Below are positions 6,841-19,936 of a stretch of 24,018 bases of DNA, in pieces. Each line of letters opens with the position of its first letter. Position 1 is the stretch's first letter. Position numbers and translations under genes: made by a program. The stretch comes from a virus, in IMG/VR virus record IMGVR_UViG_3300032053_000516, positions 1-24,018 of that record. One strand, given 5' to 3'. A model generated the notes under the pieces. The model ran no database searches, was not told where the DNA came from, and was given only the letters and a program-made list of their open reading frames with translations.

Positions 6841-6861
6841 TTTTTTATCTATTGTTTAATG

Positions 6862-6869
6862 CAAATATA
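6862..6869 (-). promoter_or_regulatory. Probable promoter -7 box for the 6840 transcription unit
   Basis: On the minus strand this is TATATTTG, a full match to the Bacteroidota -7 consensus TAnnTTTG. It lies 21 bases upstream of the ATG at 6840 in one of the few gaps of this strand. The -33 region is poor: with a 20-base spacer it reads TTTA instead of TTTG. The -7 box is directly visible; promoter activity is inferred. Confidence 0.5.
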
Positions 6870-6924
6870 CTAATTTTCGGAAACACTTGTAAAAATAATT
6901 TTTGGTCCAAATGTATTGGTACCA

Positions 6925-7497
6925 TTACATTCTCTTTTCGAGAGCCATTTCTTTTAACTTAACTTCTATGATAGGTTCTCCTATCAGATCAATCTCTTTA
7001 ATTAAGGTATCGAATTCTTCTCTGCTGATAGTTTTAGCCTTTTCTATGCGATCTATTAGAACTGTAGCTTTCTTATGTCCCATTGACTTCTCTGCTTCAG
7101 ATTTTTGGTGATCTGGATTCTCCAATACTTTATATCTGATGTCATGGATGTTTGCCATGAATGTTTTAATAGGGCATGGAACAACTTCACCTTGTTCAGT
7201 TAAAACACGAACACATTCTCCAACCATATCCATTATAATATTCTGGTTTGCAGTAACTATTCTAAACTCCTCTTTTGATTTACTTGCAACAATCATGGAA
7301 ATAAGAGACTTGAGTTGTGGAACTGGCAATTCTCTTTCTGGAAAGAGGTAAGTGTTCTTAGTGTAAGGAATCTTCTTTTCAAGTTGTGCATACGTGTGAT
7401 ATGGTGCAACAAGACATTTAATAATCTTTCCTTCGTAGATCATTTCAGATGTAGCTTTCTCCTCGGGAGATAATTCGAAAAAGTTATCTAACTTCAT
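6925..7497 (-). CDS. Hypothetical protein, 190 aa
   Basis: I do not recognise this soluble protein. It appears mainly alpha-helical after a beta-rich beginning (MIYEGKIIKCLVAPYHTY), with conserved-looking segments FPERELPVPQLKSLISMIVA and CPIKTFMANIHDIRYKVLEN. There is no membrane segment, and its few Cys residues do not make a zinc motif. The ATG at 7497 lies 14 bases inside the end of the 7484-7699 gene. Downstream there is an 84-base gap with a promoter-like box, so this gene probably ends its unit. Function is unknown. Confidence 0.78.
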   Translation of the reverse strand: MKLDNFFELSPEEKATSEMIYEGKIIKCLVAPYHTYAQLEKKIPYTKNTYLFPERELPVPQLKSLISMIVASKSKEEFRIVTANQNIIMDMVGECVRVLTEQGEVVPCPIKTFMANIHDIRYKVLENPDHQKSEAEKSMGHKKATVLIDRIEKAKTISREEFDTLIKEIDLIGEPIIEVKLKEMALEKRM

Positions 7498-7699
7498 AGT
7501 TTATATCAATTACTTCATTTATTTTCTGCATGTTAATACCATCATATTTTTTCTTTCTTTCCGAAAGATCTTCCGTTGGCATTACATACACAGGATAATC
7601 ATCCCAATCAAATGTATCACACACAGATATAATATGGGTTGCTCCAATCTCTTTTGCATGTTTTTTCCATGCATCTATGTCTTCTCTTGTTGCGGCCAT
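7484..7699 (-). CDS. Small conserved phage-type protein, 71 aa
   Basis: The 71-residue protein has a pattern I recognise from small conserved hypothetical proteins of large phages: an N-terminal helix with EDIDAWKKHAKEIGATHI, then the core VCDTFDWDDYPVYV, then a helix ending with NMQKINEVID. The Cys-Asp-Thr-Phe-Asp core with several acidic residues could bind metal, but no function is established to my knowledge. It overlaps the upstream 7675-8118 gene by 25 bases and the downstream gene by 14 bases. Confidence 0.78.
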   Translation of the reverse strand: MAATREDIDAWKKHAKEIGATHIISVCDTFDWDDYPVYVMPTEDLSERKKKYDGINMQKINEVIDINYEVR

Positions 7700-8118
7700 G
7701 ATAATGATTTTATTTTTCTTATTTCACCTTCTTCAATTTTAATACCAGGACAGAAATGTTTAATTTGGTCTATTACTAATCCAAATGTTGTTCCGTCGCT
7801 TGTAACACTTACATCTGGAGTAACAAATGGAACTACAGATTTATTTTCAATTTTAATATCACCTTGTTGAACATACTGAATATGACAATATATTAAATCT
7901 TTTTCAAATTCAATTTGTGCAAAACCCAATCCTGTGTTAAAGTGAGATCTTAACTTGTCTAATGATTCATCTTCACCTTCATAGGTTAATGTATAATGCA
8001 CTTCAATTAGTTCTGCTAAAACTTTATAAGACTGAAACAAATCCGCATGTTGCATGAACTTTGTCATCTTGTCATTCTTGATAGATGCAACTCCTATTAT
8101 GTCTATTTGTTTTTTCAT
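7675..8118 (-). CDS. Hypothetical protein, 147 aa
   Basis: I do not recognise this protein. It looks soluble and beta-rich, with a first strand IDIIGVASIK, a helix around DLFQSYKVLAELI, and several later strands such as IYCHIQYVQQGDIKIENKS. It has no signal peptide, and its two Cys residues do not form an obvious motif. The ATG at 8118 is 14 bases downstream of the structured element at 8133-8247, so that element would form its leader if both are on one transcript. Its end overlaps the next gene by 25 bases, suggesting coupled translation. Confidence 0.75.
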   Translation of the reverse strand: MKKQIDIIGVASIKNDKMTKFMQHADLFQSYKVLAELIEVHYTLTYEGEDESLDKLRSHFNTGLGFAQIEFEKDLIYCHIQYVQQGDIKIENKSVVPFVTPDVSVTSDGTTFGLVIDQIKHFCPGIKIEEGEIRKIKSLSWPQQEKT

Positions 8119-8132
8119 ATTTAATGTATGTT

Positions 8133-8247
8133 GTAAATAAATCGCTATTGGTATTGTGGCGTCGAACCACCCCTCTGACTAGAAAAACGAACAAAGCGTA
8201 TCAGCGGAAACCTACCCCTTTCCTATCACAATAGCGATTTAATTTAC
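8133..8247 (-). ncRNA. Candidate structured RNA with a cloverleaf-like fold
   Basis: The gap between the TPM gene stop and the 8118 gene start is almost wholly occupied by one inverted-repeat structure. The arms 8139-8150 and 8229-8240 pair perfectly over 12 bp (minus-strand AAATCGCTATTG) and extend outward by 6 bp with one bulged base (8133-8138 with 8242-8247). Inside are three hairpins on the minus strand: GGAAA/TTTCC (8206-8223), CTGAT/GTCAG with a 20-base loop (8175-8204), and GTGG/CCAC with loop TTCGACG (8156-8170), which looks like a tRNA T-arm. A competing 7-bp pairing exists between 8152-8158 and 8227-8233. The region is richer in GC than its surroundings. It is not a canonical tRNA. 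A riboregulator, processing element, tRNA-derived relic or small mobile palindrome are alternatives. Confidence 0.6.
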
Positions 8248-8248
8248 T

Positions 8249-9916
8249 CTACCAATCCCCACTTGCACCTCCACCACTTGAACTACCACCACCAAAATCT
8301 GAACTTGATGATGACGAACTTGAACTTGATGATCTATAATCATCATCATCTCTTGATCTTGATGCTGCTAAAGCTGCTGCTGCAATAGATGCAATTCTAT
8401 CTGCTTCTCTTCTTCTTTCTCTTTCTGCATCATCAATTTCATTTTTTCCTTTTTTGATAACAGTATCTAAATCCGTTATCAATGAATGCAATTCATTATA
8501 TGCATTAAATGGATTCGCTGGCTCTCTAAACATTTCAGCTTTTGTTTTAACTGAATGGAATTTTGTTTTAGTACTAGAAGAAACATCACTATTTTTTATT
8601 ATCCTTTGTGCATCATGTATCAAAGAAACAATCTTTCCTCTGTTTGTGGAAACATATTGAACTGCATTTGTTATGATGTCTAATCTACTTACTATTACCG
8701 TTAAATGGTCAGATACCTCTTTTGTAATTTTTTGTATATCATTGAAATCTTTTTTCAATGCAGCATAATCATAAAGAGTTTTTGTTGAAGTATCCTTTAT
8801 TTTTGAAAGTGCTAATTGTGCCTGTTTAAGTTTTTCCAAGAATGTTGTTTCTGGGAATGCAACTTCAACAACATTAATTCCATAATCATTCATAATAGAA
8901 GTATAACGTTGTCTTACTTCATTTACTTTACTGCTTAATGGATTAATACTAAAAACATCTATAGAAAGTTTTAAAGCATTGAACTCGGATACTTTAACAT
9001 ACAATGGTCGTATTTTATCAATACTTATTTGTACTGTATTCTTTATTAATATTTTTTCGTCTTCTAAATATTCCACACTCAATACTCTCTTTGAGTAAAG
9101 GTCTACAACTTTCTTTGAAGCTGATTCAAAATTAGAAAGATCTGATACTGAAAAAAGCTCTTTGTTTCCATTTGCCCATGCTACTAATCTCTGCAAATCA
9201 TTTATAGAAGAATTGTTTTCGAAAATAAGCTTGTCCATTTTTTCCTTATAATCTTTCTTTTCTTTTTCAATCTTTCTTTTCTTTAATACTTCATTTCGTA
9301 TAAGAAGGAAAAGAACAATACCGGCTCCTGTTATAATACCAAACCACATTAAAAAACTTATCATTGAATCGTGGTCATCTTGTGCTTGTTGTATAATTGC
9401 TGCTTCCTGTTTCTTTTTAAGTTCAGCTCTTTGTTCCCATGAGATAGGACCAAGCTTTGTAATAAATTCATCTAACAAAGAATTGAAACCTGCATAGAAA
9501 TTATTCTTCTTAAAATTAGGAACTAATAAATCTTGACCTTTAATTTTAGCATAACCATCTGTTATGTATTCTTCTAAACCTGTTCCAACTTCGATTCTCC
9601 ATTTATGATCTGTATACGACATAAGAATCATTATTCCATTATTCAATTCTTTTTTACCTACTCCCCATTTTCTAAATAGTTCGTTTGTGTAGCTATCAAC
9701 ATCAGAACCATCTAAAGTTTTTACTGTAACAATAGTCATCTCAATGGAAGACTTCTCTTTAAACTCTCTAATTTTTATATCAAGCATCTGTTCACTTGGA
9801 TCATCAATAAGACCGGCGAAATCATTTACATAAGATGTTGTGTTTCTCTCTGGAAACTTCTGGGCGTTTGTACCTATGAATGCAAAAGCAAAAAGTACTA
9901 CTAGAATCTTTTTCAT
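8249..9916 (-). CDS. TPM-domain membrane protein with coiled coil and Ser/Gly tail
   Basis: The 555-residue protein has a cleavable-looking signal peptide (MKKILVVLFAFAFIGTNAQ, about residues 1-19), a TPM domain at about 25-155 (NDFAGLIDD, WGVGKKELNNGIMIL, WRIEVGTGLEEYITDG), one membrane helix at about 187-207, a long helical coiled-coil region at about 210-510, and a Ser-run tail ending GGGASGDW. The signal, TPM, membrane helix and SG-rich tail ending in a Trp are typical of YgcG-type proteins, though the coiled-coil part is longer than usual. The TPM domain would face the periplasm. TPM proteins often neighbour LemA, and a lemA gene lies 1.8 kb upstream on the same strand. Function of the pair is unclear; host origin is inferred. 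Confidence 0.88.
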   Translation of the reverse strand: MKKILVVLFAFAFIGTNAQKFPERNTTSYVNDFAGLIDDPSEQMLDIKIREFKEKSSIEMTIVTVKTLDGSDVDSYTNELFRKWGVGKKELNNGIMILMSYTDHKWRIEVGTGLEEYITDGYAKIKGQDLLVPNFKKNNFYAGFNSLLDEFITKLGPISWEQRAELKKKQEAAIIQQAQDDHDSMISFLMWFGIITGAGIVLFLLIRNEVLKKRKIEKEKKDYKEKMDKLIFENNSSINDLQRLVAWANGNKELFSVSDLSNFESASKKVVDLYSKRVLSVEYLEDEKILIKNTVQISIDKIRPLYVKVSEFNALKLSIDVFSINPLSSKVNEVRQRYTSIMNDYGINVVEVAFPETTFLEKLKQAQLALSKIKDTSTKTLYDYAALKKDFNDIQKITKEVSDHLTVIVSRLDIITNAVQYVSTNRGKIVSLIHDAQRIIKNSDVSSSTKTKFHSVKTKAEMFREPANPFNAYNELHSLITDLDTVIKKGKNEIDDAERERRREADRIASIAAAALAASRSRDDDDYRSSSSSSSSSSSDFGGGSSSGGGASGDW

Positions 9917-9921
9917 TTTTA

Positions 9922-10125
9922 TTAGTTAAATTTTACAATTAAATCTTTATCGTGTTCAATGTTTACGAGTATCTTAGCATTATCTTTATTCGATTTCAAC
10001 ATAACTAAAAAGTTTCCATTTCTGAAAACTCTTTCGACTATCTTTATAAATGAATAAGAATCACCATGGTTAGATACATGTTTTTTTCCATAGTTACTTT
10101 TAGCTTCAATTATTATATTATTCAT
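9922..10125 (-). CDS. Small hypothetical protein, 67 aa
   Basis: I start this gene at the ATG at 10123-10125, which overlaps the end of the DUF5606 gene by 8 bases; a longer frame from 10170 would reach 45 bases further into that gene and add a lysine/proline-rich N-terminus. The 67-residue product begins MNNIIIEAKSNYGKKHVSNH and is rich in beta-like segments, such as FLVMLKSN and AKILVNIEHDKDLIVKF. No family is recognised. It lies 5 bases before the start of the TPM gene, with which it is probably co-expressed. Confidence 0.65.
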   Translation of the reverse strand: MNNIIIEAKSNYGKKHVSNHGDSYSFIKIVERVFRNGNFLVMLKSNKDNAKILVNIEHDKDLIVKFN

Positions 10126-10582
10126 TTTCTTCGGTTTCTTCGGGTGTTGGTTCAGGATTCTCAGCAGCAAATACTTCTAATGCTTTATCGATTTCCTTAT
10201 ACCATTTGATTATCTTCGAAAGATGATATGACTTAAATTGTGCCTCATCATAATTAGGAACTATTTTATCCATCATCTTGGTCTTGTCTTCTTCAGACAT
10301 AGTTTCATAAGAATCAAGATCTTCTTTTTTCAAGTCGCCGGCAACACACATAGTCATCATAGACTCAAATATAGTCTCTAACACTATTTCTTTTCCATCT
10401 TTCAAAAAGATTCTATAGTTTTTTAATGCTACAATATCTTTCAAGTTTGTTGTAGCAAACATTGATTCATCGTTTAAATTCTGTACACGTGCCATCTTTG
10501 CAGCCGGAACATATTTAACAAGCTTCCATAAGCCTGGTTTTCCTTTAACCGTTAATAGGTCTTTAATTTCAAATGATTCCAT
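10118..10582 (-). CDS. DUF5606-like protein of Bacteroidota type
   Basis: The 154-residue product from the ATG at 10580-10582 closely follows the DUF5606 pattern I know from Bacteroidota: FEIKDLLTVKGKPGLWKLVK at the N-terminus, a middle stretch on a protein-wide beta layout (MFATTNLKDIVALKNYRIF), VLETIFESM, a PNYDEAQFKSYHLSKIIKWY segment, and an acidic Glu-rich tail. Host versions have the same order, GKPGL near the start and a late helix ending in a W-Y pair, and a similar length. Function is unknown. The start I chose places 14 bases of overlap with the upstream gene; the frame is open further upstream to 10660. A phage copy argues for a Bacteroidota host and for gene capture. Confidence 0.82.
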   Translation of the reverse strand: MESFEIKDLLTVKGKPGLWKLVKYVPAAKMARVQNLNDESMFATTNLKDIVALKNYRIFLKDGKEIVLETIFESMMTMCVAGDLKKEDLDSYETMSEEDKTKMMDKIVPNYDEAQFKSYHLSKIIKWYKEIDKALEVFAAENPEPTPEETEENE

Positions 10583-11705: not shown

Positions 11706-12302
11706 TTACTTAATATCGAAATTCATGTCAGGAGAATTTTGTGCACCTGAATTAGCTTGGAAATAATCTTTACGAGAATAACTGAATGCGCTAGCCCAAA
11801 GATTCTTTGGAAACACTTTGATGTATCTGTTGTAGTTTTCGACAACTTGATTAAAATCTTTTCTTGAAACTGTTATCCTATTTTCTGTACCTGCTATTTC
11901 ACTTTGAAGTGAAATGAATTGTTGGTCTGCTTTTAAATCAGGATATTTTTCTATAACTACCATCAATCGAGATAATGAACTTGATAATTGTGTTTGTGCT
12001 GCATCGAATTGCTTCATGCTTTCTGCATTCAAATTAGAAGGATCGATAGTTACCTTTGTTGCATTTGCTCTTGCATTGATAACGTCGGTTAATGTTGACT
12101 TCTCGAAATTTGCATAAGCTGAAACTGCTTTAACTAATTTAGGAATTAAATCCATTCTTCGTTGATACTGTGCTTGAACATCTCCCCAAGTACGTTCAAC
12201 TGTTTCTTCCTTTGTTGCCATGTTATTAAAGCTTGAACAGCCATTCATAAAGATTAACATGCCTATGAATCCGAAGATTCCAATTTTAATGTAATTTTTC
12301 AT
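11706..12302 (-). CDS. lemA: LemA family protein
   Basis: The 198-residue protein covers the full LemA family: an N-terminal membrane or lipoprotein signal (a hydrophobic run ending MNGC, with Cys22 as lipidation candidate), then ERTWGDVQAQYQRRMDLIPK, the VINARANATK helix, LSRLMVVIEKYPDLKADQQF, EIAGTENRITVSRKDFN and the C-terminal LWASAFSYSRKDYF segment. LemA proteins are membrane-anchored helical bundles of unclear function, common in bacteria and often next to TPM/YgcG proteins. A TPM gene lies downstream on the same strand, separated by four genes. A phage copy was probably taken from a host. The lipobox is looser than consensus, so the anchor could be an ordinary membrane helix. Confidence 0.93.
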   Translation of the reverse strand: MKNYIKIGIFGFIGMLIFMNGCSSFNNMATKEETVERTWGDVQAQYQRRMDLIPKLVKAVSAYANFEKSTLTDVINARANATKVTIDPSNLNAESMKQFDAAQTQLSSSLSRLMVVIEKYPDLKADQQFISLQSEIAGTENRITVSRKDFNQVVENYNRYIKVFPKNLWASAFSYSRKDYFQANSGAQNSPDMNFDIK

Positions 12303-19320: not shown

Positions 19321-19361
19321 GATTTAACTTTGTTATTTTTAATATTCGTGCTAATGTTATT

Positions 19362-19415
19362 GTTGCCCGGGACAACTCAACAGCCTTTGCAGACTGAACA
19401 CTAACCCGACGGGTT
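19362..19415 (-). promoter_or_regulatory. Structured 5' leader with three hairpins
   Basis: On the minus strand the leader of the zinc-ribbon gene folds into AACCC/GGGTT (19403-19415), CAGTC/GGCTG around TGCAAA (19381-19396) and GTTG/CAAC with an inner C-G pair and loop CCGG (19362-19376). An ACAAC to GTTGT alternative pairing joins the first and last parts, so two folds compete. Together with the 13-codon frame that ends in the first hairpin, this resembles an attenuation or translation-control leader. It matches no riboswitch class I know. Confidence 0.5.
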
Positions 19416-19442
19416 GTAAATCGTTATATTATATACTTCCAT
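19401..19442 (-). other. Possible leader peptide, 13 codons
   Basis: An ATG at 19440-19442 lies about 14 bases after the expected transcript start and opens a frame MEVYNITIYNPSG, stopping at TAG in the first hairpin of the leader. Such a uORF ending in a hairpin could link translation to folding of the leader. Its shortness makes chance possible. Confidence 0.3.
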
Positions 19443-19460
19443 GTGGAAATTGTTTCAACG

Positions 19461-19491
19461 CAAATATATAGATCAAATAAACTTTCACAAA
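19461..19491 (-). promoter_or_regulatory. Consensus Bacteroidota promoter for the zinc-ribbon gene
   Basis: On the minus strand the -33 box TTTG (19488-19491) is separated by exactly 19 bases from the -7 box TATATTTG (19461-19468). This fits the published Bacteroidota consensus TTTG-N19-TAnnTTTG at every defined position. The -33 box sits directly before the ATG of the plus-strand lysozyme, so the two genes diverge from one region. It implies transcription by the host primary sigma factor. Confidence 0.8.
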
Positions 19492-19492
19492 C

Positions 19493-19936
19493 ATGAAACT
19501 AGGATGCGGTGTAAACTTGATTAAGGAATCAGAAGGATTCAGAGCTAAGATGTATTATGATGCCAATCATTTACCTACAATAGGTTATGGCACATTAATC
19601 GACACCAAAGAAGAAGAGTGGTTAAAAACTGCTACTATCACAGAAGAGCAAGCTGTGGAATTCTTAAGACATGATTGCGAAGTTTTTGAAAGAGCAGTAA
19701 CAAAAATGGTCCAAGTACCCTTGAACCAAAATCAGTTTGACGCTTTAATATCTTTAGTTTATAATATCGGACCTAACAACTTCCAGAAATCTTCAGTCCT
19801 TGGTTCTATCAACAAGAAATCTTCTGTTGAAGAAATAAAAAAGAACTGGGCATTATGGTGCAGAGCTGATGGAAAAGTATTAAAAGGATTAGTAACAAGG
19901 AGACAAAAAGAAATTGATCTCTTTTTTAAACCTTAA
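19493..19936 (+). CDS. Phage lysozyme, glycoside hydrolase family 24
   Basis: The 147-residue endolysin hydrolyses the MurNAc-GlcNAc bond of peptidoglycan. The GH24 triad is intact: Glu14, Asp23 and Thr29, with the usual E-x8-D-x5-T spacing in the segment ESEGFRAKMYYDANHLPTIG. Further markers are FDALISLVYNIGPNNF and the C-terminal GLVTRRQKEIDLFF. No signal peptide is present, so release would need a holin, which I cannot identify here. It is the only clear plus-strand gene in the window and its stop codon abuts the stop of the convergent ATPase gene, with no terminator between. The start at 19493 follows an A-rich leader. Confidence 0.95.
   Translation: MKLGCGVNLIKESEGFRAKMYYDANHLPTIGYGTLIDTKEEEWLKTATITEEQAVEFLRHDCEVFERAVTKMVQVPLNQNQFDALISLVYNIGPNNFQKSSVLGSINKKSSVEEIKKNWALWCRADGKVLKGLVTRRQKEIDLFFKP

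Follow-up and report, generated by a model that had tools for sequence, protein, structure and literature searches.

Strong stems in the gaps between cistrons commonly act as barriers at the 3' end of an mRNA, or as sites of its processing. The early mRNA of bacteriophage T7 carries RNase III processing stems between its genes, and REP-type hairpins are intercistronic stems that stabilise mRNA. Strong stems can also be neutral, or be features of the DNA. Here we compare with these systems an inverted-repeat element that lies in an operon gap of a phage from an IMG/VR virus record, IMGVR_UViG_3300032053_000516 (positions 1-24,018). These 24,018 bases are referred to throughout as the window.

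The phage and the locus

The main genes of the window form tight operons on the minus strand, the exception being a lysozyme-like gene (19493-19936) on the plus strand; they include genes for a TPM-domain protein, a LemA protein, an HNH protein, an AAA ATPase and a DNA ligase, the last of these with its nearest counterparts in Cellulophaga phages phi17:2 and phi4:1 (48% identity). A DUF6852 domain is also encoded, and promoter boxes of the TAnnTTTG type are present in the gap 6841-6924 and in the counterpart gap of the related contig L003. The domain and the boxes would fit a Bacteroidota host, and the source is probably a giant phage of Bacteroidota type. TPM and LemA are usually membrane-associated proteins of cells. 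Their genes (8249-9916 and 11706-12302) are near each other in the window and in the two syntenic relatives described below, and are immediate neighbours in LR745206, a phage of 634 kb; TPM relatives occur in other huge phage records too. Another G+C-rich, strongly folding gap, with hairpins AACCCGTCGGGTT and GTTGTCCCGGGCAAC, lies between divergent genes at 19321-19492, and gave no match in Rfam.

The syntenic relatives are L003 (IMG/VR contig 3300037010_002556) and G005 (the whole of contig 3300028558_000016, also L017, 482,156 bases); the collinearity with G005 extends over almost all of the window, at protein identities of about 38-86%. The features of the locus are as follows.

8249-9916, minus strand: TPM-domain protein gene (PF04536), upstream neighbour of the element; 46-48% identical in L003 and G005
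8133-8247, minus strand: the closed element in its entirety, an inverted-repeat hairpin filling the gap from the TPM gene to ORF 7675-8118, assessed by pair probabilities and shuffles; missing in L003 and G005
8229-8247, minus strand: 5' arm of the 18-bp outer stem, with one bulged U at 8241/8242
8206-8223, minus strand: D-arm-like hairpin GGAAA-GGGGTAGG-TTTCC; weak
8175-8204, minus strand: middle arm CTGAT...GTCAG with a 20-base loop; outside the minimum-energy fold
8156-8170, minus strand: T-arm-like hairpin GTGG-TTCGACG-CCAC; a 5-bp variant is favoured
8133-8150, minus strand: 3' arm of the 18-bp outer stem
7675-8118, minus strand: orphan ORF of 147 aa, its last codons overlapping the next gene; coding by codon usage, missing in both syntenic relatives
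7484-7699, minus strand: conserved 71-aa gene, downstream; directly after the TPM gene in L003 and G005

A solid outer stem and a loose interior

The initial annotation saw in the gap a structured element resembling a cloverleaf, with a 12-bp perfect stem, extended by six base pairs and one bulge, that enclosed three hairpins. The outer part of this description is borne out: positions 8139-8150 pair with 8229-8240, and 8133-8138 with 8242-8247, leaving a bulged U at 8241 or 8242. Nearly all pairs of the resulting 18-bp stem (12 + 6) have a probability of at least 0.92 on the transcribed strand, which is the minus strand. The element fits the gap between the two same-strand genes of the operon exactly: it reaches from one base past the TPM stop codon at 8249-8251 (the annotation had counted two) to 14 bases ahead of the ATG at 8118, as originally stated. 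Dinucleotide shuffling of the gap (8119-8248), repeated 20,000 times, gave stems of at least 12 bp with P = 0.0012 and none of 15 bp or more. Shuffles of the whole window often contain a bare 12-bp inverted repeat (95 of 200, falling to 30 of 200 with at least four G+C per arm). When intergenic stems enclosing 25-140 nt were compared across the window, L003's contig, the 482-kb G005 and three other loci (about 45 kb of non-coding DNA), the element's stem was the longest, the runners-up having 14 and 13 bp. The outer stem is real, and chance is far too weak to give a stem of such length in this gap.

Folding of the element as a whole is less striking. On the transcribed strand it is modestly better than that of shuffles (z = -2.09, 6 of 200; z = -1.54 with flanks), and the non-transcribed strand folds better than the transcribed one (z = -3.11). 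Within the stem the cloverleaf proves to be overdrawn: at -30.5 kcal/mol it lies 3.8 kcal/mol above the minimum-energy fold (-34.3), so that the three-hairpin interior is unsupported as a defined fold. The hairpin taken for a D-arm has a probability of only about 0.27, and in place of the proposed T-arm with its 7-nt T-loop a 5-bp stem with the loop UCGAC is preferred (probability about 0.6). The 78-nt interior folded alone is not more stable than shuffles (z = +0.95), and the G+C content inside the element is 49%, versus 32% for the window. A second 7-bp pairing, TATTGTG/CACAATA (8227-8233 with 8152-8158), had been noticed as a possible competitor of the outer stem. The pairing is there, but a fold constrained to contain it is about 6 kcal/mol less stable (-28.2 versus -34.3), and the data therefore do not favour a switch. 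The suggestion of a riboregulator is likewise left without support, given the cost of the rival pairing, the lack of any homologue from which covariation could be read and the absence of the element from both syntenic relatives.

No sequence homologue of the element was found by BLAST against phages and plasmids or by exact patterns in IMG/VR, and no structural homologue by a one-sequence covariance model run over 0.6 Mb and ten whole records; a second copy was not found in the window, G005 (482 kb), L003's contig or LR745206. Comparison with Rfam gave nothing at the gathering score or at E<=10, and the element belongs to no riboswitch or cis-regulatory family known there. The element is thus known from a single sequence, so that an RNA role draws no support from covariation or conservation.

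A probable lineage-specific insertion

In both L003 and G005 a stretch of 17-19 AT-rich bases separates the TPM stop codon from the start of the orthologue of gene 7484-7699. The same junction in the window spans 549 bases, about 530 more than in the relatives, and holds the element and ORF 7675-8118, both of which are missing from the relatives' junctions. Eight more phage loci carry an orthologue of gene 7484-7699 with no TPM gene beside it, and are therefore uninformative on the junction; in LR745206 another gene lies directly 3' of the TPM gene, and a scan of genome contigs found nothing for gene 7484-7699 or for the orphan ORF. Two empty sites show the difference itself; its direction, a gain of the extra 530 bases or so in the lineage of the source phage, is inferred. 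G005 has an extra gene of its own at a nearby junction, where no inverted repeat of this kind was seen. The locus also serves as a caution, in that a cloverleaf drawn from one sequence became, after syntenic comparison, a solid outer stem, a loose interior and a lineage-specific insertion.

ORF 7675-8118 is coding by codon usage, with a score of 0.349 against a mean of 0.366, while the other forward frames score -0.095 and -0.147. No relative of its product was found in Pfam, PHROGs, PADLOC, the phage collection, IMG/VR or GTDB genomes, nor in G005, LR745206 and eight further phage records, and the structure prediction for the protein is poor (mean pLDDT 54.5).

An intercistronic stem proposed to act in cis

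Our preferred reading, which we hold tentatively at a probability of roughly 0.4, is that the element and ORF 7675-8118 together form an accessory insertion, and that the stem is a cis-acting punctuation mark in the intercistronic mRNA. The two, about 530 bases in all, would have been gained as accessory material between the TPM gene and gene 7484-7699. Starting one base after the TPM stop codon, the 18-bp stem would act in cis on the operon transcript to block 3'-to-5' decay of the TPM message, and might also, or instead, serve as a cleavage site for RNase III or another double-strand-specific RNase; in this way it would separate expression of TPM from that of the new ORF. The element has what is expected of an intercistronic stem for RNA processing or stability, namely a long stem that the transcribed strand forms within an operon gap. 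In favour of the cis reading we also count the length of the stem beyond chance, the exact filling of the gap, the coding neighbour ORF, the two empty sites, and the absence of any listed promoter or terminator in the gap: a scan of 7400-10200 listed neither a terminator within the gap nor promoter-like sites on the transcribed strand. The element is not itself an intrinsic terminator, which has a G+C-rich short-loop stem followed by a run of U; its loop is of 78 nt and its tail AUUUAC. Against the cis reading stand the single sequence, the modest folding of the transcribed strand and the better folding of the opposite one. Of the initial annotation, the structured element between operon genes survives, and so does the suggested role as an RNA processing site; a role in cis is plausible but unproven. 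If it were true, a newly gained gene would have been slotted into a tight phage operon together with its own RNA boundary. Most likely the element punctuates the mRNA locally or is the scar of an insertion, rather than being a new conserved riboregulator.

Alternative explanations

The main rival to the cis-acting reading is that the inverted repeat matters as DNA: a small non-autonomous mobile element, or a single-gene cassette that brought the ORF along, would have left it as a footprint or used it for recombination, and any RNA fold would be incidental. Unlikely as we consider this, the presence of the insertion in the window and its absence from the two relatives speak for it, as does the G+C-rich interior. 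L003 supplies a further parallel at L003:13366-14630, where an insertion interrupts the RNA-ligase orthologue after codon 24. The first part of this insertion is an imperfect inverted repeat, about 30 bases long; a methyltransferase-like gene, which seems to be broken too, comes next. The similarity of this repeat to the element is not significant, however (score 28, against a shuffle 95% point of 31). The element is moreover single-copy in the four records searched, no target duplication was seen at its ends and no further terminal repeat beyond the ORF, and no such repeat was seen at the extra gene of G005. It therefore shows neither the multiple copies nor the target-site duplication of MITE-like elements in the window, G005, L003's contig or LR745206. 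Nor is it an integron attC site: the core boxes RYYYAAC ... GTTRRRY are missing from its ends on both strands, the nearest sequence being GTTGTAA, with one mismatch and no partner box.

Somewhat less probable again is that the element is functionless debris of the insertion, an inverted repeat that arose by chance or is now decaying. Its restriction to one contig, its absence from the relatives and its unstructured interior are all as such debris would have them, but an 18-bp near-perfect stem is far beyond the chance expectation for the gap, and in phages, whose intergenic space is short, useless sequence tends to go.

It is improbable that the element gives rise to a distinct small RNA that works in trans, whether released from the operon transcript or driven by its own promoter: a structured, G+C-rich stretch within an A+T-rich genome might suggest it, but neither a terminator-like site nor, on the transcribed strand, a promoter-like one is listed for the gap, and no Rfam match or homologue was found. 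More speculative still is an undescribed cassette system in this group of large Bacteroidota phages, in which single genes would travel behind structured inverted repeats serving as recombination sites and the insertions in the window and in L003 would be two independent instances; we regard it as very improbable.

The least probable reading, that the element is a tRNA, a decayed tRNA or a tRNA mimic, is largely refuted. Its loops do contain TTCGA and GG, and ARAGORN in a relaxed run returned a tRNA-Ser(gct) shape, but this reached only about 79% of the threshold, a level equalled by 11 of 500 shuffles (2.2%); at an 80% threshold the program gives 13 hits over the whole window, and the acceptor of the relaxed call contains mismatches. 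ARAGORN at normal thresholds finds no tRNA gene at the element, and RF00005 gives nothing there at E<=10. Since G005 has 55 tRNAs called by ARAGORN, odd ones included and several with unusual long variable arms, a covariance model (R1) was trained on 17 of its own long-armed tRNAs. In the searched pieces this model gave its training members 48-71 bits and other odd G005 tRNAs down to 26 bits; over the element, with filters off, it had no match. No 7-bp acceptor compatible with the T-arm and with the position of a 3' CCA was found in the element, the T-like hairpin and the pairing of 8152-8158 with 8227-8233 compete for one CCAC strand, and the would-be acceptor end is buried inside a long perfect duplex. 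We accordingly reject the tRNA, tmRNA and intron-bearing tRNA readings, and with them the proposed mimicry. The sole match to the T-arm pattern, in L004, is a different sequence: L004:528-597, on a prophage contig downstream of a terminator, is tRNA-like without a normal anticodon arm, and its scores are marginal for both tRNA-Sec (18.8 bits) and R1 (14.7 bits).

The tRNA set of G005 looks more unusual than the element itself. It comprises at least 55 tRNAs, with ordinary copies beside forms of 84-92 nt that have a long variable arm. By anticodon the long-armed forms are Lys, Asn (twice), Met, Glu, Gln, Trp and His, isotypes that are normally short-armed; three tRNAs have the anticodon CTA. 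The odd tRNAs lie at L020:7373-7464, L020:5778-5869, L020:6974-7059, L026:4757-4843, L039:6605-6692, L039:7507-7591, L040:13915-13998 and L040:14375-14464. Wide-loop intergenic stems of G005, of 14 bp at L039:6238-6308 (386238-386308) and of 13 bp at L026:3587-3643 (123587-123643), stand shortly upstream of tRNA clusters, and the former is followed by a terminator-like hairpin.

Comparison with known systems

With tRNA (RF00005) the element shares TTCGA- and GG-containing hairpins inside a closing stem; it differs in having no covariance-model match, no workable acceptor end and no anticodon arm of normal size. MITE-like elements and attC-type cassette sites resemble it as short inverted-repeat elements next to a lineage-specific gene, whereas the element has no other copies, no target duplication and no attC core boxes at its ends. 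Unlike the REP-type hairpins, which form a repeated family, it is single-copy in everything searched, yet like them it is a strong stem just 3' of a coding sequence and could block 3'-to-5' decay. From the RNase III stems of T7 it is set apart by its lack of homology, its large, G+C-rich interior of 78 nt, its occurrence in one genome and a cleavage that is here putative; in common with them, it is a long imperfect stem in a phage operon gap, placed right after a stop codon.
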